Shown: positions 10,033 through 26,459 of the stretch, in pieces
How the letters are laid out: each line of letters opens with the position of its first letter
Position numbering within the stretch: the first letter of the stretch is position 1
Source: Rhodanobacter sp. DHG33
GTDB taxonomy: Bacteria > Pseudomonadota > Gammaproteobacteria > Xanthomonadales > Rhodanobacteraceae
DNA length: 64,000 nt
Direction: 5' to 3'
NCBI RefSeq assembly: GCF_014843005.1
Contig: NZ_JACYXM010000004.1
Coordinates: 188,530 to 252,529 of the forward strand
Notes under the pieces: generated by a model
The model's database searches: none
What the model was told of the DNA's origin: nothing
Seen by the model: only the letters and a program-made list of their open reading frames with translations
Program-made: the position numbers and the translations under genes

Positions 10033-10038
10033 CAATCT

Positions 10039-10719: not shown

Positions 10720-10967
10720 GCCGATGCCTCTGCGTAGGAACGCTTCCGTTGGACTCATGCGCTACCGGGATACTAATGCGGGCCTGGCTCACAGAAGAAT
10801 CCAATTACCTGCGACCCTCTTTCGCGCCTGCTGCAAAACCTTGCGCTTCCTTTGGTTAGCGGTTCAGTTGCAGTATGCCGACACCCATGCACTGTGGATG
10901 GGGCACGCTGCCCCTGCCTCCCTATCAAGCCAGCTCTGCGGCAACTCAAACCTCGAGACCGATACCC

Positions 10968-11393: not shown

Positions 11394-11500
11394 ACGTTGC
11401 ATGGGTCATCGCGGAGTAGATGGCCAAACCTCGGGTTCCCATCGCCGCTCCTGTATGCCTTAATCCCCTCCGGCGTTTGTCGCCGCGGGGGAAGTGGATC

Positions 11501-12694
11501 ATGGCCGTGCGCTGGATCGTCTGCCTGTTGCTGTTGCTGAGCTCCGACGCGTGGGCCGGCGGCCCCGTTGCCACGGTACGCGTCGCCTTCAACCGCGACG
11601 GCATCACCGCCATCCGCGTGCATGGCTATGCCGACAAGGCCACGGGCCGCGAAGTCAGCGCGGACGATCCGGTGCGCATCGCCTCGATCTCCAAGATGGT
11701 CACCACGCTGGGCGTGATGCGCCTGGTGGAAGCGGGCAAGCTGAACCTCGATGCGGATGCCTCCGGCTTGCTCGGCTGGCGGCTGCGCAACCCGGCGTTT
11801 CCGCAGGTGCCGATCACCCTGCGCATGCTGCTGTCGCACCGCTCCAGCCTCACCGACGACGCCGGCTACTGGCAGACGCCGCTGGGCGGCGAGCTGCGCG
11901 ACATCCTCAAGGATCCGCGCGCCTGGGACACGAAACACGCGCCGGGCAGCTACTTCCACTACACCAATCTCAACTTCCCGCTGGTGGCGCAGATCATGGA
12001 GCGCGCCACCGGCGAGCGCTTCGACCAACTCATGGCGCGCCTGGTACTGCGCCCGCTGGGCATCGACGCCTGCTTCAACTGGGCACTGTGCAGCGACGCC
12101 ACCGCCGCCCATGCTGTGGTGCTGTACGACGCCGATGGCAAAGCGGTGAAGGACGACAACCACGGCCGCAAACCCGCCTGCCCGGTGACGCCGGCCAGCG
12201 ACGGCAGCTGCGACCTGTCGCGCTGGCGTGCCGGCACCAACGGCGCGCTGTTCTCGCCGCAAGGCGGCCTGCGCATTTCCGCCAGGGGCCTGGCGCGTAT
12301 CGGCGAACTGCTGCTCGGCAACGGCAGCATCGACGGCAAGCGGCTGCTCAAGCCCAGCTCCATCCAGGCGATGAGCACGCCGGAGTGGCAATACCATGCC
12401 GGCAATGGCCTCACCTACGAAGAAGATGGCGGCGACGTCGACCAAGGCTTCTTCTGCCGCTACGGCCTCGCCGTGCAGACGCTGGCCACGCCGGTGCAAG
12501 GCTGTCACGACGATCCGTTCGGCGACGGCGTGGCGCGCGTGGGGCATTCCGGCTCCGCCTACGGATTGCAGGCCGGGCTATGGATGGATCGCAAGAGCGG
12601 TACGGGCGTAGTGTGGTTCGCCACGGGCATGCCGGACCAGCGCACCGGCGGCAAATCGACCTTCAGTGCGGTGGAAGAAGAGTTGGCGCACTAG
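11501..12694 (+). CDS. Secreted serine hydrolase, beta-lactamase/PBP-like family
   Basis: A 397-residue enzyme of the class C beta-lactamase/esterase (EstB-like) fold. An N-terminal signal peptide ([19 protein letters not shown]) predicts export. Catalytic motifs are SISK (Ser nucleophile and Lys) around residue 65, YTN in HYTNLNFP, and HSG in GHSGSAYG near the C-terminus. These are the SxxK, YxN and HxG/KTG-equivalent motifs. Physiological substrates of this broad family range from peptidoglycan fragments to esters, so none can be assigned. The start at 11501 gives a proper signal peptide with GGGGAA upstream; the upstream ATG at 11420 would add an unlikely leader. Confidence 0.85.
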
Positions 12695-12734
12695 TACCTG
12701 GGTGACACCACGACATCATCGGGAGGATCAAGCG

Positions 12735-13520
12735 ATGCGTATCGCCAGCGTAGGGCATGCAGTGTTTGCGGCGACCCTGATCGCCCTCGGCATTCTGGGC
12801 GTGATCGAGGGCGGCTTCACCGTGATATGGCAACCGGTGTTCGATCACGTGCCGGCTGCAACGTTCCTTGCCTATCTCTGTGCCGTGGTTTCGCTGGCGT
12901 GCGGCCTCGGCCTGTTCTGGCCACGCTCGACTCCGCTGGCTGCGCGCGTGCTGTTTTTCTACACGCTGGCATGGCTGCTGGCTTTCAAGTTGCCGCTGAT
13001 CGCCAAGGCGCCGCTCACCGAAGGTTCGTATCAATACTGCAGCGAAATGGCGGTGATCGTGGCGGGCGCATGGGTACTGCACGCGTGGTTTGCCACCGAT
13101 GCGGATCGCCGCCTGCTCGGTTTCGCCGTCGGCGACCGGGGCCTGCGCCTGGCGCGCGTGCTCTACGGCCTGGCGTTGATCGGCTTCGGCTTCTCGCACT
13201 TCGTCTATCTCAACCTCACCGCCCCGCTGATTCCCCACTGGCTGCATGCACCGGTGTTCTGGGCCTACCTGACTGGTGGCGCCTACCTCGCCGCCGGCGT
13301 GGCGATCATCTTCAACGTGCTTGCACGTCTCGCCGCCACGCTCTCGGCCTTGATGATGGGCCTGTTCCTGCTGCTGATCTGGCTGCCCATGGTTGCCGCC
13401 GGCCATATCAGCGCCTTCAACTGGGGCGAGACGTATGCGACCTGGGTGCTGACGGCGGCGGCGTGGGTGGTGGCGGACTCGTATCGCGGGATGCCTTGGT
13501 TCTCACGCCTGCATCCATAG
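12735..13520 (+). CDS. Multi-pass membrane protein, DoxX-like
   Basis: A 261-residue hydrophobic protein with roughly seven to eight membrane segments. The N-terminal segment is VFAATLIALGILGVIEGGF; a later block (LARVLYGLALIGFGFSHFVY, then AYLTGGAYLAAGVAIIFNVL) resembles the DoxX fold. Function unknown. The start at 12735 has a strong GGGAGGA eight bases upstream. It follows the serine hydrolase by 40 bases on the same strand, so the two may be co-transcribed. Confidence 0.75.
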   Translation: MRIASVGHAVFAATLIALGILGVIEGGFTVIWQPVFDHVPAATFLAYLCAVVSLACGLGLFWPRSTPLAARVLFFYTLAWLLAFKLPLIAKAPLTEGSYQYCSEMAVIVAGAWVLHAWFATDADRRLLGFAVGDRGLRLARVLYGLALIGFGFSHFVYLNLTAPLIPHWLHAPVFWAYLTGGAYLAAGVAIIFNVLARLAATLSALMMGLFLLLIWLPMVAAGHISAFNWGETYATWVLTAAAWVVADSYRGMPWFSRLHP

Positions 13521-13570
13521 CGCAGGCCTCTCGGCAGCGCTCGCTTGCATGGAACAACGACCTTCTTTCT

Positions 13571-13586
13571 GTAGGTAAAAACCTAC
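13571..13586. repeat. Small hairpin GTAGGT-AAAA-ACCTAC
   Basis: A perfect six-base inverted repeat around AAAA, 50 bases after the membrane-protein gene and about 115 before the GntR gene. No T run follows, so a terminator role is doubtful. The next bases (CCAGCCGCGACGA) resemble REP-type elements of pseudomonads and xanthomonads. Confidence 0.35.
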
Positions 13587-13699
13587 TCCAGCCGCGACGA
13601 GAGAGAGTACAAAACCGCCGAGCATCCGACTTTTGCACGCAATCAGTCCGTGTACCATCCGGCCGAGGAGGCAACCATCCGCAGACATGGAGTCCAGCT

Positions 13700-14329
13700 A
13701 TGGATGCAATCCACTCCAAAAGTGCATTCGTATACGGACAAGTCCGGCGCGCCCTGCGATCCGGACGCTACGCACCCGGGCAGCGGATCGATCCAGCCAC
13801 GCTCGCTGCCGAGTTTCACATCAGCCCCACGCCCGTTCGGTTTGCCCTGTATCGCCTGGTCGGCGAATCCCTGCTCGTGGATCATGCCCGCGGCGGACTG
13901 CATGTTCCGCTGCTTACCGAAGTCGCCATGCGCAACCTCTACGACTGGATGGAACGCCTGTTGCTGATGGCCTGCGACATGGGCGCAGCGCTGGCAACTC
14001 AGAAGGCGGAGCCGTTGACGATTGCTTCCCGTGACGACGACATGGCCAAGGCGACGTGGCAACTCTTCGACGCGATCGCCCGCGCGACGGCGCACCACCC
14101 CTTGTATCAGGCCGTGAAACAGGCGAATGATCGGCTGGCACCGATACGCCAAGCCAAGCAAGGGTTGCTCGAACACAGCTTCGAGGAGCTTTCGGAACTG
14201 AACCGGCATTGGCAGGCGCGTGACATGCCGGCCTTGAAGTCCGCCCTGCGCGACTACCACAAGCATCGGAAGCAGCTCGTTCCGAGCATCGTGGCGCTGC
14301 TCTATGACCGCAGCGACTACTTGCATTAG
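13700..14329 (+). CDS. GntR-family transcriptional regulator, upstream of the lasso-peptide genes
   Basis: A 209-residue DNA-binding protein. The winged helix covers about residues 8-75: VYGQVRRALRSGRYAPGQRI, then LAAEFHISPTPVRFALYRL, typical of GntR, with wing sequence LLVDHARGGLHV. The all-alpha C-terminal part (NLYDWMERLLLMACDMGAAL onward) resembles an FCD effector domain, though its metal-binding histidines are not evident. The start at 13700 is the ATG giving a complete wHTH; the frame is open upstream only as shadow of the previous gene. It lies 170 bases before the lasso precursor on the same strand, which makes it a candidate regulator of that operon (inference). Confidence 0.85.
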   Translation: MDAIHSKSAFVYGQVRRALRSGRYAPGQRIDPATLAAEFHISPTPVRFALYRLVGESLLVDHARGGLHVPLLTEVAMRNLYDWMERLLLMACDMGAALATQKAEPLTIASRDDDMAKATWQLFDAIARATAHHPLYQAVKQANDRLAPIRQAKQGLLEHSFEELSELNRHWQARDMPALKSALRDYHKHRKQLVPSIVALLYDRSDYLH

Positions 14330-14460
14330 CGCGCCAGTTTCAGAGCGTCGGAGCAGGCAAGCCCTACACAGCGGGACGGCCATCACGCTCCCGGAATAAT
14401 CACCGGATGACAGCGCAATAATCATTGGAAAATCAAAAATTCCGCCTCCTACGCTCCGCG

Positions 14461-14481
14461 CGTCATGGGACTGCCATGACG
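14461..14481. promoter_or_regulatory. Palindrome in the leader of the lasso precursor
   Basis: CGTCATGG-GACTG-CCATGACG, a perfect eight-base inverted repeat, ends eight bases before the ribosome site (AGGAG, 14489-14493) of the precursor. It could be an operator (the adjacent GntR protein is the obvious candidate) or a 5' UTR hairpin. An eight-base direct repeat, AATAATCA, lies upstream at 14395-14402 and 14417-14424. Confidence 0.5.
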
Positions 14482-14499
14482 TCACTGCAGGAGAGCGAA

Positions 14500-14640
14500 A
14501 TGAACACGAACGAGAACAGCCGCACCAATGCGTCGGAAGACATCGTCGAGCTCGGCGTCGCCAGTGTCGAGACGAAGGGAAGCGGCGTACCCCTCAATGA
14601 AACGATCGGCCGTCAGAACGAACTCGGCATCTCCGAGTAA
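14500..14640 (+). CDS. Lasso peptide precursor (A peptide)
   Basis: A 46-residue precursor. The 26-residue leader contains DIVELGVASVETK, the ELGVAS-x-x-T pattern of proteobacterial lasso leaders, with the required Thr at position -2 (Thr25). Cleavage after Lys26 gives the core GSGVPLNETIGRQNELGISE, 20 residues. Its Gly1 amine and Glu8 side chain are correctly spaced for an eight-residue macrolactam ring, leaving a 12-residue tail. The tail has no aromatic residue; Arg12, Gln13 or Asn14 are possible steric plugs. The ATG at 14500 is chosen over the in-frame ATG at 14425 because AGGAG lies seven bases upstream and the shorter form matches known precursor lengths. I do not recognise this core among described lasso peptides, but I cannot search. 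Confidence 0.92.
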   Translation: MNTNENSRTNASEDIVELGVASVETKGSGVPLNETIGRQNELGISE

Positions 14641-14647
14641 CCGAACC

Positions 14648-14675
14648 ACGAGGCGCACCGCAAGGTGCGCCTCGT
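14648..14675 (+). terminator. Strong stem-loop between lasso genes A and B
   Basis: A perfect 12-base stem, ACGAGGCGCACC/GGTGCGCCTCGT, is closed by a GCAA (GNRA) tetraloop, starts eight bases after the precursor stop, and is followed by TACTTTGG. It can act as a leaky terminator or 3' stabiliser, raising precursor mRNA above that of the processing enzymes. A similar inverted repeat between precursor and enzyme genes is known from other proteobacterial lasso clusters. Confidence 0.75.
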
Positions 14676-14695
14676 TACTTTGGAGAGATGCAAAG

Positions 14696-15361
14696 ATGCC
14701 AAATTACCGATTGAACGACGGGCTTTCCTTCTGCCGTATCGACGGGCGACCCATATTTCTGGATACGCTGAACGATCGATACTTTCGTCTCTCAGACACG
14801 CTGGAGCGGATGTTCCTCGATTATGTCGATGGTGCCGACGATGCTCCCGGCGGCTTCACACCGCTGATCGAAAGCCGCATCCTCACGGACGCACCGCCGC
14901 ACCCGAGCATCGCCCCCGATGCGGTCACTGCCGCCTCCCGGAGTGCACTGGAGTCGATTTCCACTTCTGCAACGTGCGGCATCAGCGACATGGCAGAGAC
15001 CGCCGCGACGGTCTTCTGGACACAGATCCAGCTAAAAACACGCAAGCTGAAAGCGATACTGGAAGACGTCACCGAGTTTCGACGCCGGAAGGCATCGCAG
15101 GAAGCCGGGAATGAAACGTACCTCCTGAACGAGGCCCTCGTCTTCCTCAAGGCACGCAAATTCGTGCCCATACAGACGTGCTGCCTTCTCGACTCTCTGT
15201 CGATCGCCACCTTTCTCGCGAGACGGAACCTCCTGGCCAACATCGTCTTCGGCGTCACCGGCGACCCATTTTCTGCGCACTGCTGGGCCCAGTCGGACAG
15301 CATCGTCCTGAACGATACGATCGGAAACACCCGGGCCTATAACATCATCCGGGTGATCTGA
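14696..15361 (+). CDS. Lasso peptide B protein (RRE-leader peptidase fusion)
   Basis: A 221-residue enzyme that binds the leader and cuts it off. Residues 1-~75 resemble the PqqD-like recognition element (YRLNDGLSFCRIDGRPIFLD, DRYFRLSDTLERMFL). Residues ~105-221 are the transglutaminase-like cysteine protease, with IQTCCLLDSLSIATFL (Cys163 expected nucleophile, next to Cys162), AHCWAQ (His195) and VLND (Asp207). The single fused chain is typical of proteobacterial clusters, in contrast to the split B1/B2 of actinobacteria. The start at 14696 has GGAGAG upstream; the longer open frame into the precursor gene is shadow. The stop overlaps the next start (TGATG), indicating coupled translation. 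Confidence 0.92.
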   Translation: MPNYRLNDGLSFCRIDGRPIFLDTLNDRYFRLSDTLERMFLDYVDGADDAPGGFTPLIESRILTDAPPHPSIAPDAVTAASRSALESISTSATCGISDMAETAATVFWTQIQLKTRKLKAILEDVTEFRRRKASQEAGNETYLLNEALVFLKARKFVPIQTCCLLDSLSIATFLARRNLLANIVFGVTGDPFSAHCWAQSDSIVLNDTIGNTRAYNIIRVI

Positions 15362-17145
15362 TGAGCCATGACTATTTTCTGTTGGTCGACGGTGTTGACC
15401 AGCCCGATGACCGGCCCACTGCCGATCTGACCGCCGCGTTGCAGAACGGAGGCATGCACCTCCGGGCGACATTCGGAGCAACTCACGTCTTCACATCATG
15501 CGGTACACCCACATTATTGCTGCCTGGCGGTGGCGTCATCGCAGGAGATCTGTACTCTCATCGCGGCGAACGCATCCGTGACGTCGGCCCGTTGGCTGGG
15601 ATGTCATCCAACACGACCGTACAACACCATATCCTCGCGAATTTCTGGGGCGACTACATTCTTGTTCTGCCGGGGGCGGAAGGCCCGTCTACGTTCAGCG
15701 TGACGCGCAGCCCGTCCCATACCTGCGCCCTGCCATGCTTCTATTCGCTGACCCGCGGTACCGGCTTCATAACGTCCGATATCTCCATCGCGGCACGACT
15801 CGGCCTCTATCGCAGACGTATCGACTTCGACTACATCACCCATCGCCTGATCTATCCAGACCTGAAGACCTGCCACACCGGTATGACGGGGGTCAGCGAG
15901 CTCTTGCCAGGCTGCACGTTGCGGTTTCGCCACGCGACTGTTCACGTCGACCAGGCATGGAATCCCTGGAACTTCGTCGGCATCGACCAACGCTACTCCG
16001 ATGCACATGAGGCCGCCGCGACGATCAAGCATGCCGTCGTATCGGTCATCCGCGCCTGGGCAGAACACGACGAGTCCGTGTTGCTTGAGCTATCCGGAGG
16101 GCTGGATTCCTCCATCGTGGGCGCCGCCCTTGCGCAGTCACAGGCCAGGGTGGCGTGCTGCACGTTGACGACGCCCGTCCCAGGTGCGGACGAGCGAGAG
16201 TATGGGGCACTGATCGCCACCATGCTCGGCACCGAACTTCAGGCGGTGGAGCTTGGCTATGACGACGCACTGTTCGAGTTTCCCGTTGCGCAAGCGCTGA
16301 TCACTCCCGCCATCGGGCCCCTGCAGTACGCGGTCGACAGGATCATGCAGGCGACCGCCGAGCGATGTGGTGCAAAAAGCTATTTCTCCGGCGCCGGCGG
16401 CGACACGATATTCGGCTATCTCACCAGCGCCGCGCCCGCTGCCGACGCCTTTCGCGAAGGCGGATTCTTGACTGGGATACGGGCGATCCACGACTTGTCC
16501 ATGTTTCACCAATGCACCTACTGGAAGGCCAGCCGGCTCACCTTGCGCAAGCTGCTCCAGCCGGAGCGGGCATCGTACGGCGTCGACCGCTCATGGCTTT
16601 CTCCGCGCCTCTCTCTACCCGAGGCACAACTTCATCCGTGGTTGTCGCCACCTGCAGCGGCCCTCCCTGGCGACCGCCAACGCATCTTTGAGCTCAGCGC
16701 AACGCAGTTCTTTCGCGACAGCTGCCCCCGCAGCCTGACCCGGCCCGTCAGGATGCCGTTGCTGTCACAACCAGTCATCGAAGCCTGTCTGCGCGTGCCC
16801 AGCTGGATGTGGTTCGCCGGCGGCCACAACCGCGCCGTCGCCAGACAAGCGTTCGCGGATGTTCTTCCGCCCGCCATAGTGGCGCGAAAGAGCAAGGGCA
16901 CATTCACCGCCTATCTGGGCGCCCTGTATCGCCGAAAGGCTGACGCGATGCTCGCCTTCCTTCTCGACGGCGAGTTGCAGTCGCACGGCCTCCTGGACGC
17001 TGACGCACTACGCCAGCTCGCCGGAGGCGAGGTGCCGCGAAATGCAGGCTCCTTCATGCGGATATTCCAGCTGTGCGCGCTCGAAAACTGGATTCGCCAA
17101 CAGTCGCCATCGGCAGAGCACACGCCTACTTCGACTGCCCACTAA
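15361..17145 (+). CDS. Lasso cyclase (C protein), asparagine synthetase-like
   Basis: A 594-residue ATP-dependent enzyme that adenylates the Glu8 side chain and closes the macrolactam ring around the tail. The synthetase domain has the PP-loop LSGGLDSSIVG (Ser245-Ser251) and a further FSGAGGDTIFGY, corresponding to the AsnB-type acceptor-binding region. The N-terminal part is the amidotransferase-like domain, but the protein begins MSHDYF, without the Cys2 nucleophile of true asparagine synthetase, as expected for lasso cyclases. It starts inside the stop of the B gene and ends 20 bases inside the 3' end of the convergent isopeptidase gene. Confidence 0.94.
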   Translation: MSHDYFLLVDGVDQPDDRPTADLTAALQNGGMHLRATFGATHVFTSCGTPTLLLPGGGVIAGDLYSHRGERIRDVGPLAGMSSNTTVQHHILANFWGDYILVLPGAEGPSTFSVTRSPSHTCALPCFYSLTRGTGFITSDISIAARLGLYRRRIDFDYITHRLIYPDLKTCHTGMTGVSELLPGCTLRFRHATVHVDQAWNPWNFVGIDQRYSDAHEAAATIKHAVVSVIRAWAEHDESVLLELSGGLDSSIVGAALAQSQARVACCTLTTPVPGADEREYGALIATMLGTELQAVELGYDDALFEFPVAQALITPAIGPLQYAVDRIMQATAERCGAKSYFSGAGGDTIFGYLTSAAPAADAFREGGFLTGIRAIHDLSMFHQCTYWKASRLTLRKLLQPERASYGVDRSWLSPRLSLPEAQLHPWLSPPAAALPGDRQRIFELSATQFFRDSCPRSLTRPVRMPLLSQPVIEACLRVPSWMWFAGGHNRAVARQAFADVLPPAIVARKSKGTFTAYLGALYRRKADAMLAFLLDGELQSHGLLDADALRQLAGGEVPRNAGSFMRIFQLCALENWIRQQSPSAEHTPTSTAH

Positions 17146-19246
17146 CCATGCCCTGCCTCATGCGACGCCACTGGGCGTACTGACCGGCCTTGGCTGGGTT
17201 CCTGTCTTCCTCGCCCAACAACCAGAACCGGAACCAGTCCAGGTTGCGTTCGTAGACGGCCAGCTTGTGGCGCGGCTGAAACTTCTGGTGCGACTCGTTC
17301 GGAAACACGTAGACATCGGCACGATGTTCGCGGATCAAAGGCACCGCATAGTCGAGCGCCAAACGGTATTCCTGCTCCGACATCTGCATCAGCACAGGCA
17401 CCTTCACCTGCTCGACATGGTAGTAAGGCGAGATCCGCTTCCAGCGCTCCGGCGTCTCTTCGAAAGACCCCAATTGCCAGAATCGCTTCAGCCGCGAGAA
17501 GTAGACGTCGCCCCACAAGCCAAGCAACAGGCGCAGCGATGGCGAAATCACCGGCGTGCTCACCGATACCGCACGCGGAACGCGGGAATGCATGGCGGCC
17601 CACATGGCAACTTCCGCGCCGAAACTCAGCCCGCCCATCCCTACGCGCGCCGGATCGATGTCGCCATGCGAAGCCAAATGGTCAACCGCACTCTCGACGG
17701 CGGCCTGCCCCTGCTCGTAGCGCGCAATGGCATCGTCCTGGGTGGGGGCCGCGTTGATGCATAGCGCCGAAATGCCGTTCAGGGCCAACATGGCGAGCGG
17801 CCATTCGTCTCCCATGCCTCCACGCAGAAAGCCCGAGCACCGGTAATAGGCAATGAAAAGCGCGGGCGGCGTGTGGCCTTGGGTTGCCGCAGGATAGAAC
17901 TCGCCCGTGAAACTCTCTCCCCGCACGTCGGTCCAGTGGATCTCACTTACGGAAACGGAGTGCGCCATGTCTTGCGCCAAGGCGGCATTCGGATCGAACA
18001 AGACGCTACGGCTCCCCGATGAAAGGTCGATGCGCTCCAGTCGCGGCGGACGGTCAGCATCCGCAGCCACACATACCAACGCATCGGGCGATACGCCACA
18101 CGGGCCCGGCTCCCAGCGTCCGCCTCCACCTATCTGTCCGCGCGATTGGATCACGGGGCGCACGGCACCATTGACGACGTTCCATAGAAAAATCGACTGA
18201 CCGTTATCCGGTGCAGTCACGGTGAAAACGATCTCGTCGCTGCCCGGTCGCCACCCGATGTCGGTGACCACCTTGTTCACGCATGGCTCCGCCGCGCACT
18301 TCACGGGGTGCCCAGCCCGCGGCCCTGGCAGCATGGCCAGCTCGACCGCCGACCGCCCGGCTCGGTCATCCGGCCGGTCCGGCCGAATGAGCAGGGCGAC
18401 GCGCCCGCTGCCGCGGTCTACTGAAAGCTGCGAGACCACCCCGAGCTCCGATGGAAGATCGGCTGTCGCAAGCGGCTTCGCAGGCACCTCGTCCAACGGA
18501 AGATCCTTGCCTGCTCCCGTCGCCACATCGACCGCTTTCCAGTGATCCGGTGCCTGGGAGAGCAGCGGGAAGCGCTCCAGCTCGTTGTCGACCAGGCGCT
18601 GTGTCGCCAGGCGCCCCTCGTGATATCCCGAGCGAAACAGGTCGTCTCCCAGCGGCACCGTGCGGTCAATGTGCACCCCATGGTCGTACTCGGCCTGCTC
18701 CGCATCGACCACGGCCTCGCGCGTCGCGCCGACGCTGTATTCCAACATCGTGCCGTCGGCGCCCACTGAAAATCGGCGGACATTGGCGGGATCGCGCACC
18801 ACCGGCTCGGTACGCGATCCATCCACCGCCGCGCGCCACACCTCCACCCGGCCGTCCAGCACGGTGCGATAGAAGATCCAGCGCCCGTCCGGCGACCACG
18901 CCGCGACCTCGGGCACCGAGCCCCCGCCGCTGTCCCGCAACGGCGCACCACCTTCGCCAAGGCGCCTCGGCAACGACGAGCCATCGATCGGCTGCACATA
19001 CCAGAACGTGTCGTAGGTATTGCGTTCGACCGACGCCTGCTCGGTGCGGAACGCCACCAGCCGCCCATCCGGGGAAACCGACACGCCGTCAAAGTCGACC
19101 ACTTCCACCAGTTGCCGGATGGAGACCGATGCCGTGTCCGGCGCCGCCGCCGATGCTGCGCACGGCACCTGCCCCATCAGGCCCCATGCCACGGCCCATC
19201 CTGCAGCACGCACGAATCCTGCAGTGTTTGCCCTGTTCCTGTACAC
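17126..19246 (-). CDS. Lasso peptide isopeptidase, secreted S9 prolyl-oligopeptidase family
   Basis: A 706-residue protein (from GTG at 19246) with a signal peptide ending near CAASAAAPD, a seven-blade beta-propeller region (WSPDGRWIFYRT-like repeats), and a C-terminal alpha/beta hydrolase. The nucleophile is Ser541 in GGLSFGAE and the likely catalytic His is His653 in NESHQKF; the acidic residue is less clear (Glu624/Glu626 region). Family members next to proteobacterial lasso genes hydrolyse the ring isopeptide bond of the imported lasso peptide. AAGAGG five bases before the GTG supports this start; ATGs further up lack a signal peptide. It is probably co-transcribed with the receptor gene 183 bases upstream and overlaps the cyclase gene tail-to-tail. 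Confidence 0.87.
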   Translation of the reverse strand: MYRNRANTAGFVRAAGWAVAWGLMGQVPCAASAAAPDTASVSIRQLVEVVDFDGVSVSPDGRLVAFRTEQASVERNTYDTFWYVQPIDGSSLPRRLGEGGAPLRDSGGGSVPEVAAWSPDGRWIFYRTVLDGRVEVWRAAVDGSRTEPVVRDPANVRRFSVGADGTMLEYSVGATREAVVDAEQAEYDHGVHIDRTVPLGDDLFRSGYHEGRLATQRLVDNELERFPLLSQAPDHWKAVDVATGAGKDLPLDEVPAKPLATADLPSELGVVSQLSVDRGSGRVALLIRPDRPDDRAGRSAVELAMLPGPRAGHPVKCAAEPCVNKVVTDIGWRPGSDEIVFTVTAPDNGQSIFLWNVVNGAVRPVIQSRGQIGGGGRWEPGPCGVSPDALVCVAADADRPPRLERIDLSSGSRSVLFDPNAALAQDMAHSVSVSEIHWTDVRGESFTGEFYPAATQGHTPPALFIAYYRCSGFLRGGMGDEWPLAMLALNGISALCINAAPTQDDAIARYEQGQAAVESAVDHLASHGDIDPARVGMGGLSFGAEVAMWAAMHSRVPRAVSVSTPVISPSLRLLLGLWGDVYFSRLKRFWQLGSFEETPERWKRISPYYHVEQVKVPVLMQMSEQEYRLALDYAVPLIREHRADVYVFPNESHQKFQPRHKLAVYERNLDWFRFWLLGEEDRNPAKAGQYAQWRRMRQGMVSGQSK

Positions 19247-19429
19247 GGCCACCTCTTCAGTCGTTATGCACTGCCGCCATGGGCAGCAGAAGGCCTCATC
19301 CCGCATTTGCTCCGATGCCGATGGACCTGCGCTTCGGCACAAGCACACGCCCTATCCTCCCGGTCCACGTCGCCTACCGGGCGTGTGCCGGCATGCCACT
19401 CGACCGCCTCCATGTATCTGGCGGCGGCA

Positions 19430-21856
19430 TCACCAGTGTTTCGACACCGAAAGACTCACGAACCGGCCGATCGCCGAATAGTTGGTGGAGTCATAGGGCG
19501 GTTGATCGCGCGTAGCCGGCAAGTAACCGGGCGGATTGCGATCCAGAAGGTTCTGCGCGGACAGCGCGAACTCGAGTCCGGAGAAAGCGCCAGCATCCTT
19601 TCCAGTGGCATAGCGCAAGGTGGCATCGATGGTGGTGAACGATGCGGTCTTCCGGCCGTTCACATGATCCGTAACTCCCGCCGTGTAATCGGCAAAGGTG
19701 GATGCGGTGAATCCCCCTTGCGTCCATATCGCACCGAAACGGCCTTTCACCTTGGCCGGATTGAATAGAGTGCCGGCCACCGCATAGCCATCTTGCGCAG
19801 GTGTGTTCTGCTGCGTGCTGTCCAGCCAGGTAGCCGACCCGCGCAGCGCCAGATGCCCCGCCCCGAAATCGAATCGATACGACGACGATAGATCAAGGCC
19901 CCTGGCGTGCTGGCGGGCGACATTGACGTACTGTGCATACAGGATCGCCGCGACATCGCTGGGGTTATAGGGTTTGCCCGCATAGTTGTAGAAGGCATTG
20001 GCGGATGCCAGCACCGCCGCCAGCTTCTGCCCGGTCGGCGCATAGTCGATGAAGGGAGCGTCGTTTGGATTGACCAGCGCCTGGGCATAATCGGTGATCG
20101 GCTGCACCACGCGGTTCGTGTAGTCGATGTCGAACCAGGTGAGTTCCGCCTCGAGCGCCGGCAGCGCTTCGGGGTGGAACGCCGACGACACGGTCCAGGT
20201 GGTGGCGTGCTCCGCACCCAGGTCCGGGTTGCCTCCCCAGACGGAAAGCACTGTCGCCTTGGGGCCATAAGCCGATCCGCCATAGAAGCTTGCCGGATCC
20301 AGTTCGGCAGTCTGTGCCTGATACAGCTGAAACAAAGTCGGTGCCTTGAACGACTTGCCCCAGGACGCCTTCAGGGTGACGTCGCTGCTGGGGCCATAGA
20401 TCAGCCCCACCTTGGGCGTCGTGACACTGCCGAAGCTGTCGTAGTTTTCACCCCGCACCGCGGCGGTCAGATCCAGGCGACGGACACCCGCGACACCCGC
20501 GTCCGATCCGATGAGAGGAAGGTTGAGCTCGGCATACGCAAACCGGTTGCGTTCCTCGCCGTGAACCTCCCTGGTACCAGTGAGGTAGTTGCGTTGATCG
20601 AACGTATTGCTCCTGCTGCCGGCGCCCACTGCAAGCCGCGCATCGCCACCGGCCATAGTGAACAATGGACCTTCGGCACTGACCTCGTAGGAATAGGCAT
20701 CGTTGCAATAGCAGTCGCGGATCAGCGTCGCCTGCGCGCCCGTCGCCATATCCACCTGCGACTGGTTCTGGATATGTCTATCCCTGCCCCAGCTCCCGGC
20801 TATCGAAAGCGTCCAGTCATCTGCCAGAAAAATCTCCAATTCGGGCGAGATCAGGGTGGTCGTGGTGTCCGGCGCGACACGGTAGTAATAAGGCTGAAGG
20901 CCCGTGTTCCATGGGTAGATGTACTGCCGACGCTGGGTCTGCAATGCATCCATCTGCAGCTCCACGGCATCCCCGATCGACTGGTGAACGCTAACCAGAG
21001 CACTCTGCAGGTCGCTCCCTGGATAGAGCGTGGTGGGATCGAACATGTAATCCGTGTAGCTGCGCTGGCGGGCGTAGATGGGGTCGGTGGAAACATCCTT
21101 GTAGGTCGCGATCAATCCGCCCGTGGACCATCGGCCACCCGCGGTAACGTTGTACTCGTGCGTCGCCAATCCCCCATCCGTCGCACCGCCATAGCGCGCG
21201 CCGACCGTCACCCCTTCGTAGTCGCGCTTCAGGATCACATTGCCTACGCCGCCCACGGCATCGGAGCCGTAGATGGCCGAGGCGCCATCGGGAACGATTT
21301 CGACGCGGTCTACCGCCTCGACAGGTATCGCACTGATATCGACCGCCTGCGCAATGCCACCGTAGGCCAGCCGCCGACCATTGAGCAGCGTCAGGGTCGC
21401 GTCCGGACCCAAGCCGCGCAGATTCAGGGAGGAGCCGCCGGTAACGTTCTGGTTGGCGATGCCACCGGCGCCCGCGGTCGCCCCGACGGCCACGCCGGGG
21501 TTTTGTCCGCCGGAGAAATTCTGCGGCACGCTGCGGACCACCTCGCCGAGATCGGTGAAACCTTCCTGCTGGATCTGCTCGCTGCCGATAGTGATGATCG
21601 GCGATGGCGTGGTTCCACCGCGGATGCGCGTGCCGGTAACGGTCATGCTCTGCAGGTTCGTCACCGCCGGCGCGGGCGCGGGCGATGTGTCGGCTGCATT
21701 CTTGGGCTTCCCCTTGGCCGCGGCACTGGCCACCGGTGCCCTGCTCTTTGTGCTCGTGTCCAGCTTGGCGTCCTGAGCCACGGAGCACTCGCTTGCGCCG
21801 GTGGCAGCAGCGAGCAAGGCGATGGGAAGGGCCTTACGTAACGTACTTGTCTTCAT
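19430..21856 (-). CDS. TonB-dependent outer-membrane receptor, putative lasso peptide transporter
   Basis: An 808-residue outer-membrane barrel. It has a signal peptide (MKTSTLRKALPIALLAAATG), a Pro/Ala/Lys-rich linker, a plug domain starting near SMTVTGTRIRG and including PQNFSGGQNPGVAVG and VDRVEIVPDGASAIYGSDAVGG, a long beta-barrel, and a C-terminal Trp. The plug sequence resembles the oar/BtuB-like TonB receptors found in lasso loci. Substrate cannot be read from sequence, but its position directly before the isopeptidase gene points to lasso peptide uptake. The start at 21856 has AAAGGA upstream; the open frame above it is not signal-like. Its promoter region contains two CTACG-N5-CGTAG palindromes shared with an XRE regulator. 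Confidence 0.9.
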   Translation of the reverse strand: MKTSTLRKALPIALLAAATGASECSVAQDAKLDTSTKSRAPVASAAAKGKPKNAADTSPAPAPAVTNLQSMTVTGTRIRGGTTPSPIITIGSEQIQQEGFTDLGEVVRSVPQNFSGGQNPGVAVGATAGAGGIANQNVTGGSSLNLRGLGPDATLTLLNGRRLAYGGIAQAVDISAIPVEAVDRVEIVPDGASAIYGSDAVGGVGNVILKRDYEGVTVGARYGGATDGGLATHEYNVTAGGRWSTGGLIATYKDVSTDPIYARQRSYTDYMFDPTTLYPGSDLQSALVSVHQSIGDAVELQMDALQTQRRQYIYPWNTGLQPYYYRVAPDTTTTLISPELEIFLADDWTLSIAGSWGRDRHIQNQSQVDMATGAQATLIRDCYCNDAYSYEVSAEGPLFTMAGGDARLAVGAGSRSNTFDQRNYLTGTREVHGEERNRFAYAELNLPLIGSDAGVAGVRRLDLTAAVRGENYDSFGSVTTPKVGLIYGPSSDVTLKASWGKSFKAPTLFQLYQAQTAELDPASFYGGSAYGPKATVLSVWGGNPDLGAEHATTWTVSSAFHPEALPALEAELTWFDIDYTNRVVQPITDYAQALVNPNDAPFIDYAPTGQKLAAVLASANAFYNYAGKPYNPSDVAAILYAQYVNVARQHARGLDLSSSYRFDFGAGHLALRGSATWLDSTQQNTPAQDGYAVAGTLFNPAKVKGRFGAIWTQGGFTASTFADYTAGVTDHVNGRKTASFTTIDATLRYATGKDAGAFSGLEFALSAQNLLDRNPPGYLPATRDQPPYDSTNYSAIGRFVSLSVSKHW

Positions 21857-22011
21857 GCTGCGTCCTTTGTTGTCCCCCTGGTTGGCGCCTTGCCTGCAGC
21901 TGCTTGACCAACGATCCGGACTGCACTTCCTGGCAGCCGCCCGTTGTCTCCCCCTTAGCCAGCTTCGGCGTGAATACGCCTGCGCCAATCACCAGTAAAA
22001 AGCCCCCACAA

Positions 22012-22052
22012 CTACGATAAACGTAGCAATGTTAACACTACGTTTTACGTAG
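22012..22052. promoter_or_regulatory. Tandem CTACG-N5-CGTAG operator pair
   Basis: Two copies of the 15-base palindrome: CTACG-ATAAA-CGTAG (22012-22026) and CTACG-TTTTA-CGTAG (22038-22052), centres 26 bases apart, in an AT-rich intergenic region between the divergent receptor and XRE genes. A third copy precedes the second XRE gene (22603-22617). These are likely binding sites of one or both XRE proteins. Confidence 0.7.
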
Positions 22053-22109
22053 TATCGATGTCAAGCAGCCATCCGGAAGCTTCTGCATATCGGAATCAGA
22101 TATGCACGC

Positions 22110-22451
22110 ATGACTGAGAAGCGACCGAACACCATCTACGGGCGCCGCCTACGCGAGGCGCGGAAGAGTTACGGCTTCTCTCAGACGGACCTGGGGATAG
22201 CGGTAGGGCTTGATGAGTCCGGGGCGGGTTCCCTCATCAGTCGCTACGAGACCGGCGTCCATCAAGCGAAACCGGGGTTGCAGAAGCGATTCGCACGGAC
22301 CCTGGAATTGCCATTGACCTACTTCTATACCGAGGACAACGAAGCGGCGCGGCTGATCGCGGACTCAGCTCGTTCCGACAAACCGGTTCAAAGACAGATT
22401 GAGATCAAGAACAAGAGGAAGCGGAAGGGGCGCGTCCGGACAAAGCGGTGA
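22110..22451 (+). CDS. XRE-family transcriptional regulator 1 (lasso locus)
   Basis: A 113-residue protein with an N-terminal helix-turn-helix of the Cro/CI (XRE) type: IYGRRLREARKSYGFSQTDL, LDESGAGSLISRYETGVHQ, then LELPLTYFYTEDNEAARLIA. The last 25 residues are strongly basic (NKRKRKGRVRTKR). It is a paralogue of the gene at 22679, sharing RRLREAR, SQxxLGI, GLDE, RYExGVHQ and YFYxED at the same spacing. No good ribosome site precedes the ATG, so a leaderless or weakly translated message is possible. It is divergent from the receptor gene, and the CTACG palindromes between them suggest autoregulation and receptor control (inference). Confidence 0.85.
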   Translation: MTEKRPNTIYGRRLREARKSYGFSQTDLGIAVGLDESGAGSLISRYETGVHQAKPGLQKRFARTLELPLTYFYTEDNEAARLIADSARSDKPVQRQIEIKNKRKRKGRVRTKR

Positions 22452-22602
22452 CCGTGGCGTACTCGGTCGTTACCTCTGCCTCGAGTACAAACCGATAAGC
22501 ACGACGTCCAGCACTCTTTTCTCGCTTTCTATCTATTGCTGGCAGCACGCCGCTGCCCGAATTCGCCCCAGATTCAGCCGAGCTGCATCGATTCGCCCAT
22601 AA

Positions 22603-22617
22603 CTACGTTTAACGTAG
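22603..22617. promoter_or_regulatory. Third CTACG-N5-CGTAG operator copy
   Basis: CTACG-TTTAA-CGTAG lies 61 bases before the GTG start of the second XRE gene. Arms are identical to those of the two copies at 22012-22052, flanked by A and T as in the second copy. Confidence 0.7.
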
Positions 22618-22678
22618 TATCGCGTCCATGTGTGTACCTGGAAGCTTCCACGCATGGAAGTTCGGGACACATGCAATC

Positions 22679-22978
22679 GTGGCTGACAAGGGATCGCTTC
22701 CCATCTATAGCCGTCGGCTGCGTGAGGCGCGCGAAGCCCGTGACATCTCGCAACGCACCCTGGGCATTGAGGCTGGCTTGGATGAATTCGTCGCCAGTAC
22801 GCGGGTCAACCGCTATGAAAAGGGTGTGCACCAGCCAGATCTGCAGACCATGCAACGCCTTGCAGCGATCCTCAAGCTACCGGTGGCCTACTTCTACGCT
22901 GAAGATGACGAACTCGCGCAGCTGATTGCTGACTTCAAAGGGCAAAGCAAGGGCAAGCGCCGACGGGATCGCAGTTGA
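22679..22978 (+). CDS. XRE-family transcriptional regulator 2 (lasso locus)
   Basis: A 99-residue XRE protein, paralogue of the gene at 22110. The GTG start at 22679 is chosen because from there VADKGSLPIYSRRLREAR aligns without gaps to the N-terminus of the first copy (MTEKRPNTIYGRRLREAR); an in-frame ATG at 22628 would add 17 non-conserved residues. HTH residues lie around 20-60 (ISQRTLGIEAGLDEF, RVNRYEKGVHQPDL). The C-terminus is short and basic (KGKRRRDRS). The ribosome site is weak, as in copy 1. About 140 bases after it carry no recognisable gene before the convergent membrane protein. Confidence 0.82.
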   Translation: MADKGSLPIYSRRLREAREARDISQRTLGIEAGLDEFVASTRVNRYEKGVHQPDLQTMQRLAAILKLPVAYFYAEDDELAQLIADFKGQSKGKRRRDRS

Positions 22979-23116
22979 AGTGGCATACGCGCGGCCAGCT
23001 TCTAGCTCGCCCCTTGCCCGTCCCAAAACTGAAGGTACGGATCTGCAGCACTGGGAATCGCACCCCGTCGTCGACGACGAAAACGCCCCCTACAAGCTGC
23101 AGCGACCAAACAAGGA

Positions 23117-24517
23117 TTAAGGAGCGACGCTTCGCAGCCGCCGCCTAGCCAGCAGCACTGCACCAAGCGCGAGAGCGAAGATCCCGCAGAGCCACGGGAA
23201 GACGTTGCCGATCCGCGTATAGAGCGTTGGCCCGGGCCCTAGCGGCAGGTCGGCGACGATCATGGTCAGGCCCGTAGGCGCATCCTGCTTGAGCGCGATC
23301 AGACGCCCTTGCGCGTCGCTGGCGAATACCAGGCCGTCATTGGCAGCCCGCACAATCGAAAATCCGCCTTCGACGCCGCGCATCACGGACATGATGCCGT
23401 GCTGCCAGCCATCGATGCCCATGTCGCCCGCGGGCACGCCCATTAGGCGGGCGCCCTTGGCGGCATCGGAACGAATGGTGTCGGGGAAATCCATGTCCTT
23501 GCAGATCTCCTCGGCACGGCCATCGCCCAGCCAGCCCGAGACACGGCCCCGTGTGAGGTTGTCCTCGAGGCCCGGCACCGGGTGGCGTTTGTCGTAGCGC
23601 CGAGTCCTGCCATCGGGCGTGATCGCCAGCGCGAAGTCGGTGGCCGGCGCCACGGCGTGAAAGCCGGCAATGATCTGCACACCCGTATCCCTGGCGGCGG
23701 CAACGAGCGGCGCGACGATTGCGCTCTGTCCGGCTGGGATCGATGCCATGCCGCCTTCCGGCGTCACCACGAATCTGGCGCCTTCCTGGGCGGCTGCACG
23801 GATCTCGCGCGCATAGGTTTCGGTCACCGCGAGAGCGGCAGGCACGGTCTTCGCCCGCCAGGAATCCGCTACGGCCGTCTCATCGACGATGCCGGCCACC
23901 CGCAGCACGTCGGGCTGCGGGTGCGCGAACTGCACGATGCCGAACACCAGATTGGCCGCACAGATCGCCAGCCCGAGGCCGACTGCAGCCGTGTTCCGTT
24001 TGAACCGCAGCGCCATGGCGACGGTATTGGCGAAGAGGCAGATCAGGAACGTGACGGCATACATGCCCAGGAGCGATGCGCCCTGAATCAGGATGGGCGC
24101 CGACATCGTGCTATAGGCGAGCGATCCATAGGTGCCGTTTGGGGAGTGCAGTTCAATCAGGAATTCGAAAGCCGTCCAGCACGCCGGAAACGCAAACAGC
24201 GTGAGCAGCGGCGATGCCCGGCGCTGCACGAAGCGCGCAAACCCTACCGCGACGCAAAACAGTCCGATATCGACCGCCAGCACCGACGCGAAGACGAGCG
24301 GCGGTATGAGGTGGAGATAAGGGGATTGCAAGATATAGCCGGCGCCGCCGAGGAGTGCGATGACGCAGGCTCCCATCACCTGCCACGTGCGCGTATTGCC
24401 ATAGGCGAGCCACAACAGTGGCACGGGCGCCAGCCAGATCAGGGCCCAGACGTGGTCGTATCCCTGGGATAGATAAAACATGATGCCGCTCAGCACGGCG
24501 GCCAGCAGGGTGATCAT
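23117..24517 (-). CDS. Apolipoprotein N-acyltransferase-like membrane protein (nitrilase superfamily)
   Basis: A 466-residue protein with about six N-terminal membrane helices (residues 1-~195), a periplasmic carbon-nitrogen hydrolase domain, and a final helix (LCGIFALALGAVLLARRRLR). This is the layout of Lnt. The nitrilase triad is visible as Glu in VVTPEGGM, Lys in YDKRHPVPGLED and Cys in EEICKDMDFP. The usual Lnt motif ICYE is altered to ICKD, and the protein is shorter than typical Lnt (~510 aa), so it is probably a paralogue with another acyl or amide substrate. Its start overlaps the stop of the TetR gene by four bases (ATGA), so the two are an operon. Confidence 0.75.
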   Translation of the reverse strand: MITLLAAVLSGIMFYLSQGYDHVWALIWLAPVPLLWLAYGNTRTWQVMGACVIALLGGAGYILQSPYLHLIPPLVFASVLAVDIGLFCVAVGFARFVQRRASPLLTLFAFPACWTAFEFLIELHSPNGTYGSLAYSTMSAPILIQGASLLGMYAVTFLICLFANTVAMALRFKRNTAAVGLGLAICAANLVFGIVQFAHPQPDVLRVAGIVDETAVADSWRAKTVPAALAVTETYAREIRAAAQEGARFVVTPEGGMASIPAGQSAIVAPLVAAARDTGVQIIAGFHAVAPATDFALAITPDGRTRRYDKRHPVPGLEDNLTRGRVSGWLGDGRAEEICKDMDFPDTIRSDAAKGARLMGVPAGDMGIDGWQHGIMSVMRGVEGGFSIVRAANDGLVFASDAQGRLIALKQDAPTGLTMIVADLPLGPGPTLYTRIGNVFPWLCGIFALALGAVLLARRRLRSVAP

Positions 24518-25092
24518 TTGCTTTTCCCGGACGGTTTGAGGGAATCGAGAAACTGGTGTTGCGCCGCGCGGTACAGCGCCTTGAATTGTTTGTCGCTGCC
24601 GAAACGCTTGGCGCGGTGCATCGACACGAATCCTTGTCCGTAGGCCGCGAGCGCCACCGCGATCCCGAGCGTGGGCTCGTCGCGGAACTGGCCATCGGCC
24701 TTCGCCTGATCGATGCGCGCCATCGCCAGCGCAATCGCCGGCGAGCGGCCTGCAGCGAAATCATCGGGGAACCGGCGCGCCGCAGGAGCAGGCAGGAAGA
24801 ACGCCGCGTCGAACTTGTGTGGCTGCGCGAGAGCGAAATCGAGATAGGCCTCCGAAAGCGCCTCCAGCCACTTCACCGGGTCCCGGGCTCGGATGCCGCC
24901 AACGATCGCCTCCCACGCGGAGATGCCGTCCTGCATGAGGGCGTTGAGCAGTTCGTCCTTGTTCTTGAAATGGCGGTAGAGCGCCATCGGCGAAAGGCCC
25001 GCCCGCTGGGCGACCTTGCGGATGGTCAGCCCCTCGAAACCAGCGGATTCGAGCACGGCTTTCGCGGCTGAGAGTATGCGGTCCTTGGTCAT
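24514..25092 (-). CDS. TetR-family transcriptional regulator
   Basis: A 192-residue regulator. The N-terminal HTH is complete: RILSAAKAVLESAGFEGLTI, RKVAQRAGLSPMALYRHFKN, KDELLNALM. The C-terminal ligand domain is unassigned. The start at 25092 (MTKDRIL) gives the usual few residues before helix 1. Two GTAC-N3-GTAC palindromes lie at once upstream of the start, consistent with autorepression. The four-base overlap with the Lnt-like gene suggests it controls that gene. Confidence 0.88.
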   Translation of the reverse strand: MTKDRILSAAKAVLESAGFEGLTIRKVAQRAGLSPMALYRHFKNKDELLNALMQDGISAWEAIVGGIRARDPVKWLEALSEAYLDFALAQPHKFDAAFFLPAPAARRFPDDFAAGRSPAIALAMARIDQAKADGQFRDEPTLGIAVALAAYGQGFVSMHRAKRFGSDKQFKALYRAAQHQFLDSLKPSGKSK

Positions 25093-25094
25093 GC

Positions 25095-25124
25095 GTACAC
25101 CGTACACTAATGAGTACTAAGTAC
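25095..25124. promoter_or_regulatory. Putative TetR operator: two GTAC-N3-GTAC palindromes
   Basis: GTAC-ACC-GTAC (25095-25105) and GTAC-TAA-GTAC (25114-25124), 19 bases apart, lie directly in front of the TetR-gene start. They also lie between this gene and the end of the upstream monooxygenase gene. Confidence 0.5.
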
Positions 25125-25154
25125 ACAAGCTGATCCTATCCTGATCAATCCGCC

Positions 25155-26363
25155 CTAGCGCGGCTTCTCAAGCGCCGATGCCGCCCAATCGATCCGGTAA
25201 CCATGTTGCCCGCCGAACATCTTGTCCGGCTTGAAAAACGTCTTCAGTGCAATCGGCATCAGGATGTGCGACACCGCTTTCGCCAAAGGCCCAGAGGCTT
25301 TCTTGCTGTTGGATCGGGCGGCGTTGGCAGCCACTCCTTCGACACGCTCTCGGCGTAGCTGTTCGTAACACGCGAAAGCCTGGCAAGGCTCCGGAAAGTC
25401 ACGCAGGCAACGCGCGAGCTGAATAGCGCTTTCTATCGCGAGTGAAGCGCCCTGCCCGGAGCTGGATGACGGCGCGTGCACGGCGTCGCCGACCAACACC
25501 ATTCTTTCGCTGTGCCAGCGAGGAACGGGCGGCATCATCTCGCTTGCGCCCGTGGCGATGAGTTGGTCCGCATCGGCCTGTCGCAGCAGGGTTTGGGCGG
25601 GATGGTCGTCCCGGCAAAGATCGCGCAGACGATCCAGCCATTGGGAGGCAGGTACCTTGCGGACCTCTGCCGAAGTCAGTGGCGTATCGTGCGGAAGGGC
25701 GGTGAACCAGCAGATGCCCAGGTCTGGATCCAGCCAATAGCCTAGAAAAGCGTGCTTGCCGAATACAAAGGTCATCGTGTCGGATGACACTTCCACCGTT
25801 CCGCACGGCGCACCACCGCCAAACCCCAGGTGACCCGTGTATTGGGGTGCCGGGGCGTTCGGATCGATCAATTCGCGCACGGCGGAGCGGATGCCATCCG
25901 CTCCAATCAGGATATCGCCGCTGGCGTGGCTGCCGTCGGCGAATTGCACGCACACGCCATCGGCCGTCTCGCTAGCGCTAACCAATCGCTTTCCGTAGAC
26001 AATCGGTATGGCGGCAGCCTCGACCGCGTTCCTGAGTACTTTGTAGAGATCGGAACGCCACACCACCCTGCCAGGTTGCATGCCTGCCAGGCCGCTGAAG
26101 CGGCATAGAACTTTTCCGCGGCTGTCTGCGATGTCCATGTGCGAAATCGGCCGGCTGACCGCGTGCAGCTCGGTATCGATACCGATGATCTTCAGCGCTT
26201 CGAGACCATTGGGCGCCAGCATCATGCCGGCTCCTACGCCGTCCGCCGCTGCGGGATACGACTCGTAGATCGTCGAACGAATACCGGCTTTTCCGAGTGC
26301 GAGTGCTACGGCCGGCCCGGCAATGCCGCCGCCGATTACCAGTGCATGTTTTACGGCTGCCAT
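25155..26363 (-). CDS. FAD-dependent monooxygenase (PHBH/UbiH-like)
   Basis: A 402-residue flavoprotein hydroxylase. The N-terminal dinucleotide-binding motif is ALVIGGGIAGPAVALALGKAG (GxGxxG). The DG motif is ILIGADGIRSAVRE, and the second FAD motif GD is in RMVLVGDAVHAPSSSSGQGASLAIE. Such enzymes hydroxylate aromatic or polycyclic compounds, including antibiotics, using NAD(P)H and O2; the substrate is unknown. The start at 26363 follows AAGGGTGG; the longer open frame crosses the divergent promoter. It is divergent from a PadR regulator and shares a palindrome-rich intergenic region with it, a common arrangement for an inducible detoxification enzyme. Confidence 0.88.
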   Translation of the reverse strand: MAAVKHALVIGGGIAGPAVALALGKAGIRSTIYESYPAAADGVGAGMMLAPNGLEALKIIGIDTELHAVSRPISHMDIADSRGKVLCRFSGLAGMQPGRVVWRSDLYKVLRNAVEAAAIPIVYGKRLVSASETADGVCVQFADGSHASGDILIGADGIRSAVRELIDPNAPAPQYTGHLGFGGGAPCGTVEVSSDTMTFVFGKHAFLGYWLDPDLGICWFTALPHDTPLTSAEVRKVPASQWLDRLRDLCRDDHPAQTLLRQADADQLIATGASEMMPPVPRWHSERMVLVGDAVHAPSSSSGQGASLAIESAIQLARCLRDFPEPCQAFACYEQLRRERVEGVAANAARSNSKKASGPLAKAVSHILMPIALKTFFKPDKMFGGQHGYRIDWAASALEKPR

Positions 26364-26381
26364 GTGTCCACCCTTCTCATA

Positions 26382-26420
26382 AGTCATAATATGACTATAT
26401 ATAGACATAGAATGACTATG
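26382..26420. promoter_or_regulatory. Palindromic operator cluster between monooxygenase and PadR genes
   Basis: Three nested palindromes: AGTCATA-A-TATGACT (26382-26396), CTATATATAG (26395-26404) and CATAG-AATGA-CTATG (26406-26420). The sequence is far more AT-rich than its surroundings and probably holds both divergent promoters and the PadR binding site. Confidence 0.6.
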
Positions 26421-26459
26421 GATGCAAGATGACCCTAGGTCCGGCATCAGGATGCGCAC

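Follow-up and report, generated by a model that had tools for sequence, protein, structure and literature searches.

Putative C.Csp231I-type controllers in the place of FecI/FecR beside the receptor of an isopeptidase-type lasso peptide cluster in Rhodanobacter

Introduction

How are the uptake and cleavage genes of a lasso peptide cluster controlled when no FecI/FecR pair stands beside them? This question is raised by a gene cluster of Rhodanobacter sp. DHG33 (Rhodanobacteraceae), whose genome comprises 3.76 Mb in 43 contigs. The stretch of DNA analysed, hereafter the window, is 64,000 nucleotides long (assembly GCF_014843005.1, contig NZ_JACYXM010000004.1, positions 188,530 to 252,529). The cluster occupies its positions 13700-22978, in the order GntR-family regulator, precursor gene A, leader protease gene B, cyclase gene C, isopeptidase, TonB-dependent receptor, XRE1 and XRE2. 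The available text of PMC9266682 describes sigma/anti-sigma pairs as accompanying all isopeptidase clusters, and calls the function of isopeptidase-type lasso peptides enigmatic.

We consider it probable, from the sequence evidence set out below, that XRE2 controls, and likely represses, the receptor-isopeptidase operon together with both XRE genes, that XRE1 is a degenerate duplicate with a modulating role, and that this module replaces the chain of STN receptor, FecR and FecI.

Results

The XRE genes lie on the forward strand at 22110..22451 (XRE1) and 22679..22978 (XRE2); comparison with orthologues places the start of XRE2 at the GTG at 22679 rather than at 22628. In profile searches the best solved relative of both proteins was C.Csp231I (E 4.5e-23 for XRE2 and 5.4e-17 for XRE1), and C.Csp231I complexes were also the top Foldseek matches of their structure models (pLDDT 74.2 for XRE2, a model of moderate quality, and 80 for XRE1), with modest TM-scores on the query of 0.50 and 0.64, respectively. 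By sequence and modelled fold, both are C.Csp231I-type proteins, a type of small regulator of restriction-modification systems. No restriction-modification genes were found among ten Pfam-typed open reading frames at 12737-24517. The contact residues of XRE2 are Ser32, Arg37 and His43, those of XRE1 Gly32, Arg37 and His43. The assignment to C.Csp231I-type controllers with their own predicted operators goes beyond the original prediction, which had been made by inspection of the window's sequence.

C.Csp231I binds CTAAG-N5-CTTAG, and its residues Ser32, Gln37 and His43 touch bases (available text of PMC4321490). The window carries a related pattern, CTACG-N5-CGTAG, as three predicted XRE2 operators, to none of which a strand is assigned. 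Operator 1 (CTACGATAAACGTAG, 22012..22026) lies on the receptor side of the divergent receptor/XRE1 promoter, operator 2 (CTACGTTTTACGTAG, 22038..22052) lies in the same promoter, 26 bp from operator 1, and operator 3 (CTACGTTTAACGTAG, 22603..22617) stands ahead of XRE2. These are the sole copies in the genome (starting at 22012, 22038 and 22603), all within 606 bp; read in reverse, the pattern is found 38 times.

The distribution of these sites was compared with that of the clusters. An isopeptidase above the NCBIfam cut-off was found in 30 of 233 genomes of the family and in 7 of 15 genomes of the genus, at most five candidates being scored per family genome, so that copies can be missed. 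Thirty-six stretches around isopeptidase genes were fetched, and tblastn was run on them with the proteins of the window and with two FecI/FecR pairs as queries; counting the window, this gave 30 full clusters, and a further 12 isopeptidase-receptor pairs in whose stretch A, B and C had no match. A double site (A/T spacers, 5-15 bp between sites) was present once each in 8 of the 233 family genomes, which are the genomes of the eight clusters with an XRE pair; the step is 26 bp in all eight, with GTTAAC between the sites. Within the 36 fetched stretches, CTACG-N5-CGTAG occurred in the seven with an XRE pair and in none of the other 29.

FecI/FecR genes were rare beside full clusters. The 30 clusters comprised 8 with the XRE pair, 6 with a single XRE gene (intact frame, by the receptor), one with FecI/FecR by the receptor (L069) and 15 with none of these, two of which (L058 and L079) gave a weak XRE-like tblastn match of unconfirmed frame; in another locus (L083) a FecI-like match lay beyond the GntR gene, away from the receptor. 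At window positions 9001-28000 tblastn with the two FecI/FecR pairs found no match. Since FecI/FecR flanks just one of the 30 full clusters, the general statement on sigma/anti-sigma pairs in the portion of PMC9266682 at hand fails in this family. The 12 pairs lacking A-B-C had FecI/FecR in ten cases, a single XRE gene in one (L067) and neither in one (L057); the ten are not independent, because they come from four genomes (G176, G182, G183 and G206), each with a full cluster elsewhere. Pfam typing of ten proteins from the FecI/FecR matches gave seven FecR proteins, two sigma factors and one protein with no match (L055). The Fisher tests assume that related loci are independent, and their value is descriptive.

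A contig of G176 (C16, ~142000-196900; L061-L063) carries six isopeptidase-receptor pairs within ~50 kb; five lack A-B-C and have FecI/FecR and STN receptors, and the sixth belongs to a full cluster. They resemble systems for taking up lasso peptides that are produced elsewhere.

STN is the domain by which receptors signal to FecR. In the window receptor (19430..21856, reverse strand) Pfam found the Plug and barrel domains, and no STN domain was detected either by Pfam or by a local STN profile built from eight receptors of these loci. The local profile recognised STN in 12/12 receptors of pairs lacking A-B-C, in 7/30 of full clusters and in 0/8 of those with the XRE pair, and Pfam STN was found in all ten receptors tested, in one of them below its cut-off. 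XRE2-type genes are present at 29 distinct lasso loci (the window, L083 and 27 from named genomes), two of which (L100 and L107) have STN. The receptor domain on which FecI/FecR surface signalling depends is absent from the window receptor.

The residues that contact DNA vary together with the sites. We compared 117 of 131 profile hits with half-sites of the forms CTAC[AG], TTAC[AG] and CTAAG within 330 bases. Of 87 proteins with S/R/H at positions 32/37/43, 82 had CTACG; S/R/S went with CTACA in 3/3 and A/R/H with TTACG in 2/2, and C.Csp231I falls into the same scheme as S/Q/H with CTAAG. Residue 37 thus appears to track base 4, residue 43 base 5 and residue 32 base 1. At three loci of one single-XRE class, situated by lasso receptors (L075, L085 and L086), the place of CTACG-N5-CGTAG is taken by CTACA-N5-TGTAG or a near form; the CTACA-N5-TGTAG sites there lie ~120 bp apart. 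Another single-XRE class (L059, L067, L088 and L090; R32/R37/N43) has none of the site forms sought. CTACG sites precede all 16 XRE1 proteins, whose contact residues vary; this would be expected with XRE2 as the binder.

In the 16 loci with both genes, the recognition helix of XRE2 is 98% identical (87% elsewhere in the protein), and that of XRE1 58% (68% elsewhere). XRE1 is without Ser32 in 9 of these loci, without Arg34 in 7 and without Asn36 in 15. Several of its DNA contacts are lost, and those of XRE2 are kept. In a midpoint-rooted tree based on few columns, XRE1 forms one clade (support 100/99) inside a 53-row group with lasso-linked XRE2 (93/84); this nesting among lasso-linked XRE2 proteins suggests that XRE1 arose by duplication in a lasso context. 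A single origin of the 55 lasso-linked controller rows was disfavoured by an approximately unbiased test (p 0.0198), which is suggestive, as 92 columns were kept and the group was named post hoc.

An XRE2-profile scan of named genomes provided 81 loci, 80 of which were kept; at least six coincide with loci of the family set. XRE2 and its sites recur beyond Rhodanobacter: 27 of the 33 closest relatives (L091-L123) adjoin lasso genes, and lasso-linked XRE2 genes occur in Rhodanobacter, Fulvimonas, Oleiagrimonas, Pseudoxanthomonas, Luteimonas, Lysobacter, Stenotrophomonas, Xanthomonas and their kin. The module itself recurs in Rhodanobacter (the rhodanodin strain), Pseudoxanthomonas, Luteimonas, Stenotrophomonas and Xanthomonas, and in some lasso loci the step between the double sites is 27-29 bp. 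This distribution over several genera, with conserved sites, speaks against the view that the XRE pair is a remnant of a phage, a plasmid or a toxin-antitoxin system and a bystander in an otherwise standard cluster. Such a view could draw on the existence of related proteins without lasso genes and on weak RstR and HipB model matches; the latter stayed below the cut-offs, and a phage or toxin-antitoxin origin was rejected. We regard the bystander explanation as very improbable.

In Luteimonas granuli Gr-4 (L104), a single 20-kb stretch holds two XRE2-type genes along with three lasso receptors and recurring CTACG sites.

Within their stretches (up to 20 kb), neither an isopeptidase nor a lasso receptor was matched at any of the other 47 loci of the scan, and one (L125) gave a distant cyclase-like match. 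A perfect CTACG-N5-CGTAG is present in 41 of them, 37 of which have two sites 34 bp apart (counted by eye), and ten typed neighbour proteins of the relatives without lasso genes had no common function. Many of the XRE2 relatives in Enterobacterales and other bacteria (L127-L163) are tandemly arranged; the sites of this group form pairs at a distance of 34 bp, and it has no known targets.

On the biosynthetic side, the original prediction had cast the GntR gene together with the XRE genes as the substitute for FecI/FecR. The XRE pair does occupy the FecI/FecR place by the receptor; the GntR part of the proposal was rejected. According to the available text of PMC9266682, isopeptidase clusters have an almost constant architecture that includes a GntR-like gene ahead of the precursor, and in our set a GntR gene lay within the fetched stretch of 27 of the 30 full clusters. 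GntR is ordinary here, because GntR, A-B-C, isopeptidase and receptor make up the known architecture. The window gene (13700..14329, forward strand) encodes a protein that matches Pfam GntR with 47 bits (cut-off 27), the FCD domain scoring 15.9, below its cut-off.

Directly ahead of the precursor lies the inverted repeat GTCATGG-N5-CCATGAC (14462..14480, no strand assigned). The form GTCATGG-N4-6-CCATGAC is exact in 43 of 49 loci; in the best-pairing placement the inner pairs are kept in 49/49, and both arms are changed together in five. The loop is 3 to 6 long (5 in 36/49), and this variable length favours an mRNA hairpin over a binding site for a dimer, although the repeat may also be an operator. 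Comparison of the GntR recognition helix with the variation of the repeat gave no clear pattern.

These data bear on a further explanation, namely that XRE2 and XRE1 regulate only themselves, and that GntR or nothing governs the receptor and isopeptidase. Autoregulation would be the older role, as 41 of the 47 lasso-free relative loci have the same site ahead of their own gene, and GntR is nearly constant in the clusters. Yet the double site, at a 26-bp step in all eight pair loci, lies in the promoter region common to the receptor, and the inverted repeat on the GntR side has its sole genomic copy (at up to one mismatch) ahead of the precursor, which argues against GntR governing the receptor. 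Exclusive self-regulation is, in our opinion, unlikely.

The remaining genes define the class of the cluster. The precursor (14500..14640, forward strand) has 46 residues with Thr at -2 and the 20-residue core GSGVPLNETIGRQNELGISE with Gly1 and Glu8, as had been read from the sequence, and it exceeds the cut-offs of two curated lasso precursor models, Pfam Subterisin (53.3 versus 27) and NCBIfam lasso_benenodin (44.4 versus 33). Protein B (14696..15361, forward strand) is a leader protease of the B2 type (NCBIfam lasso_biosyn_B2, 61.3 bits versus 33). The original prediction had described it as a fused RRE-protease; the protease part was borne out, and the N-terminal part, where RRE would lie, was matched by no Pfam or NCBIfam model, so that the fused RRE is something we presume from the anatomy of the family. 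Protein C (15361..17145, forward strand) begins with MSHDYF, and thus has no Cys2, carries SGGLDS at residue 245 and matches Pfam Asn_synthase with 111.2 bits (cut-off 21), in agreement with the AsnB-like cyclase without Cys2 proposed earlier. It scored far below the cut-offs of NCBIfam's two lasso/macrolactam cyclase models (72.8 versus 300 and 44.2 versus 525); its designation as the cyclase follows from its place in the locus, the profile support being that of the general Asn_synthase cut-off.

The isopeptidase, of the Atxe2 family (17126..19246, reverse strand, with a GTG start at 19246), matches NCBIfam NF033523 with 621.7 bits (cut-off 400), and together with the receptor it is convergent with A-B-C. 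The locus accordingly belongs to the known isopeptidase type of lasso cluster, as had been proposed, and threading and cleavage of its product are predicted. The lasso product would have a mass of 2051.028 ([M+2H]2+ 1026.521), and 18 Da would be added on opening by the isopeptidase. All the genes named earlier are present at 13700-22978, and since the identical gene order recurs in related genomes, where a search for it had been suggested, the gene set is not due to chance. The core GSGVPLNETIGRQNELGISE was absent from the precursors read in related loci, which, within those loci, agrees with the earlier suggestion of a new product.

An Rfam scan of the window found one tRNA and no other RNA; this tRNA-Thr (cgt) lies at 6816-6891, ~6.8 kb ahead of the cluster. 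To look for an empty site as a sign of mobility, the flank proteins were searched in the 15 genus genomes (E 1e-30); the upstream one was found in 7 and the downstream one in 5. Both have close homologues in the window, in G005 (no isopeptidase above the cut-off) and in G009 (one isopeptidase), and in the latter two genomes they are on separate contigs.

Discussion

Control of the cluster would, in our model, be split, with GntR acting on the biosynthetic side and XRE2 over the receptor-isopeptidase operon. From the roles of their families, B would cut the leader, C would close the Gly1-Glu8 ring, the receptor would re-import the peptide and the isopeptidase would open it. We infer that an XRE2 dimer binds CTACG-N5-CGTAG at the two sites in the receptor/XRE1 promoter and at the one ahead of XRE2, so that XRE2 and its three sites would form a closed feedback loop confined to the locus. 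XRE1, itself under the operators and with eroded contacts, most likely modulates XRE2, for example through mixed dimers; the signal, like the sign of control, belongs to the conditional part of the model.

Repression seems the likelier sign, because XRE2 carries Arg where the Ser-Gln-Glu (SQE) motif, linked to activation, has its Glu; the position reads SQR in XRE2, with Arg at 16/16 pair loci, and SQT in the window XRE1. This argument is weak and activation is a live rival, since the published C.Csp231I SQE mutant also lost DNA binding (available text of PMC4824078). XRE2 might activate the receptor operon at a low level and repress it at a high one, in the manner of C.Csp231I with its two operators, which first activates and then represses its own promoter (same source). 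The two sites in the divergent promoter fit this alternative, and the lack of a clear sigma70 promoter suggests that help may be needed. The Arg residue, for what the argument is worth, and a site spacing shorter than in C.Csp231I oppose it, and we hold it to be possible but clearly less likely than our main reading.

Besides the SQE mutant, several observations weigh against control by XRE2 as we propose it. About four CTACG-N5-CGTAG sites are expected genome-wide from base composition, so that their number alone is uninformative and the evidence is the clustering within 606 bp. Between the edges of the two promoter sites lie 11 bp, against 18 bp in C.Csp231I, where in gel shifts the second dimer was not bound once 6 bp had been removed between the sites, a spacing still longer than that of the window (available text of PMC4321490); both sites may thus not fill at once in the known manner. 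No sigma70-like promoter was recognised there (the scan gave one match versus 2.3 expected). Among the 33 nearest relatives of XRE2, six (L112, L117 and L120-L123) have no lasso genes beside them. The residue-site scheme is broken by three proteins (two S/R/Y and one V/R/H), all with CTACG, and 11 of the 117 have no site of the sought forms (five S/R/H, four R/R/N, one N/R/H and one S/H/H); its variant groups are small, and the two A/R/H proteins are identical.

A bolder and tentative reading, which we consider doubtful as a whole, is that a restriction-type timing switch was recruited into lasso clusters, perhaps repeatedly, and replaced transmembrane signalling. It would allow an entry burst of receptor and isopeptidase before XRE2 builds up, with XRE1 as an anti-repressor and residues 32/37/43 as a specificity code. 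If this were true, on entry into a new cell the peptide could be removed first, after which the genes would settle under XRE2.

Under control by XRE2, the locus offers a defined uptake-side control element, in which one candidate binder is joined by three short sites and by a paralogue that resembles a decoy; this would link restriction-controller biology with natural-product control. Small regulators of this class are widespread, and the co-variation of residues and sites moreover predicts their DNA specificities.

In the open-access literature we found no treatment of a lasso peptide together with a controller protein, none on such clusters for lasso peptides with Xre (judged from titles and the beginnings of abstracts), and nothing for the isopeptidase with helix-turn-helix or with TonB-dependent receptor and GntR; the subscription first reports on rhodanodin and the xanthomonins lie outside this scope. 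The regulators of the rhodanodin cluster are not described in the papers searchable there.

That cluster, from Rhodanobacter thiooxydans LCS2 (L091, identical with L076), is the nearest known system, with the same order of GntR, A-B-C, isopeptidase, receptor, XRE1 and XRE2 and with three sites. Its precursor carries GVLPIGNEFMGHAATPGITE, which we take to be the rhodanodin core and which differs from the core of the window. Clusters of the astexin, benenodin and subterisin type share GntR, A-B-C, the isopeptidase and the TonB receptor; in the available text of PMC9266682 they are described with sigma/anti-sigma pairs, whereas the window has the XRE pair and a receptor without STN.

The resemblance to C.Csp231I extends to fold, sequence, 5-bp arms with N5, Ser32, His43 and two sites at a promoter. 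XRE2 differs from it by Arg37 for Gln, CTACG for CTAAG and Arg18 for Glu, and the window by a 26-bp instead of a ~33-bp step, the presence of a degenerate paralogue and the lack of restriction genes among the ten typed reading frames. BswR of Pseudomonas aeruginosa (4o8b), the second solved relative, is a non-restriction member of the fold and binds another palindrome, at rsmZ (available text of PMC3985676). Set against these systems, the cluster type and its GntR gene were already known, and the unusual part of the locus is the XRE pair in the place of FecI/FecR.

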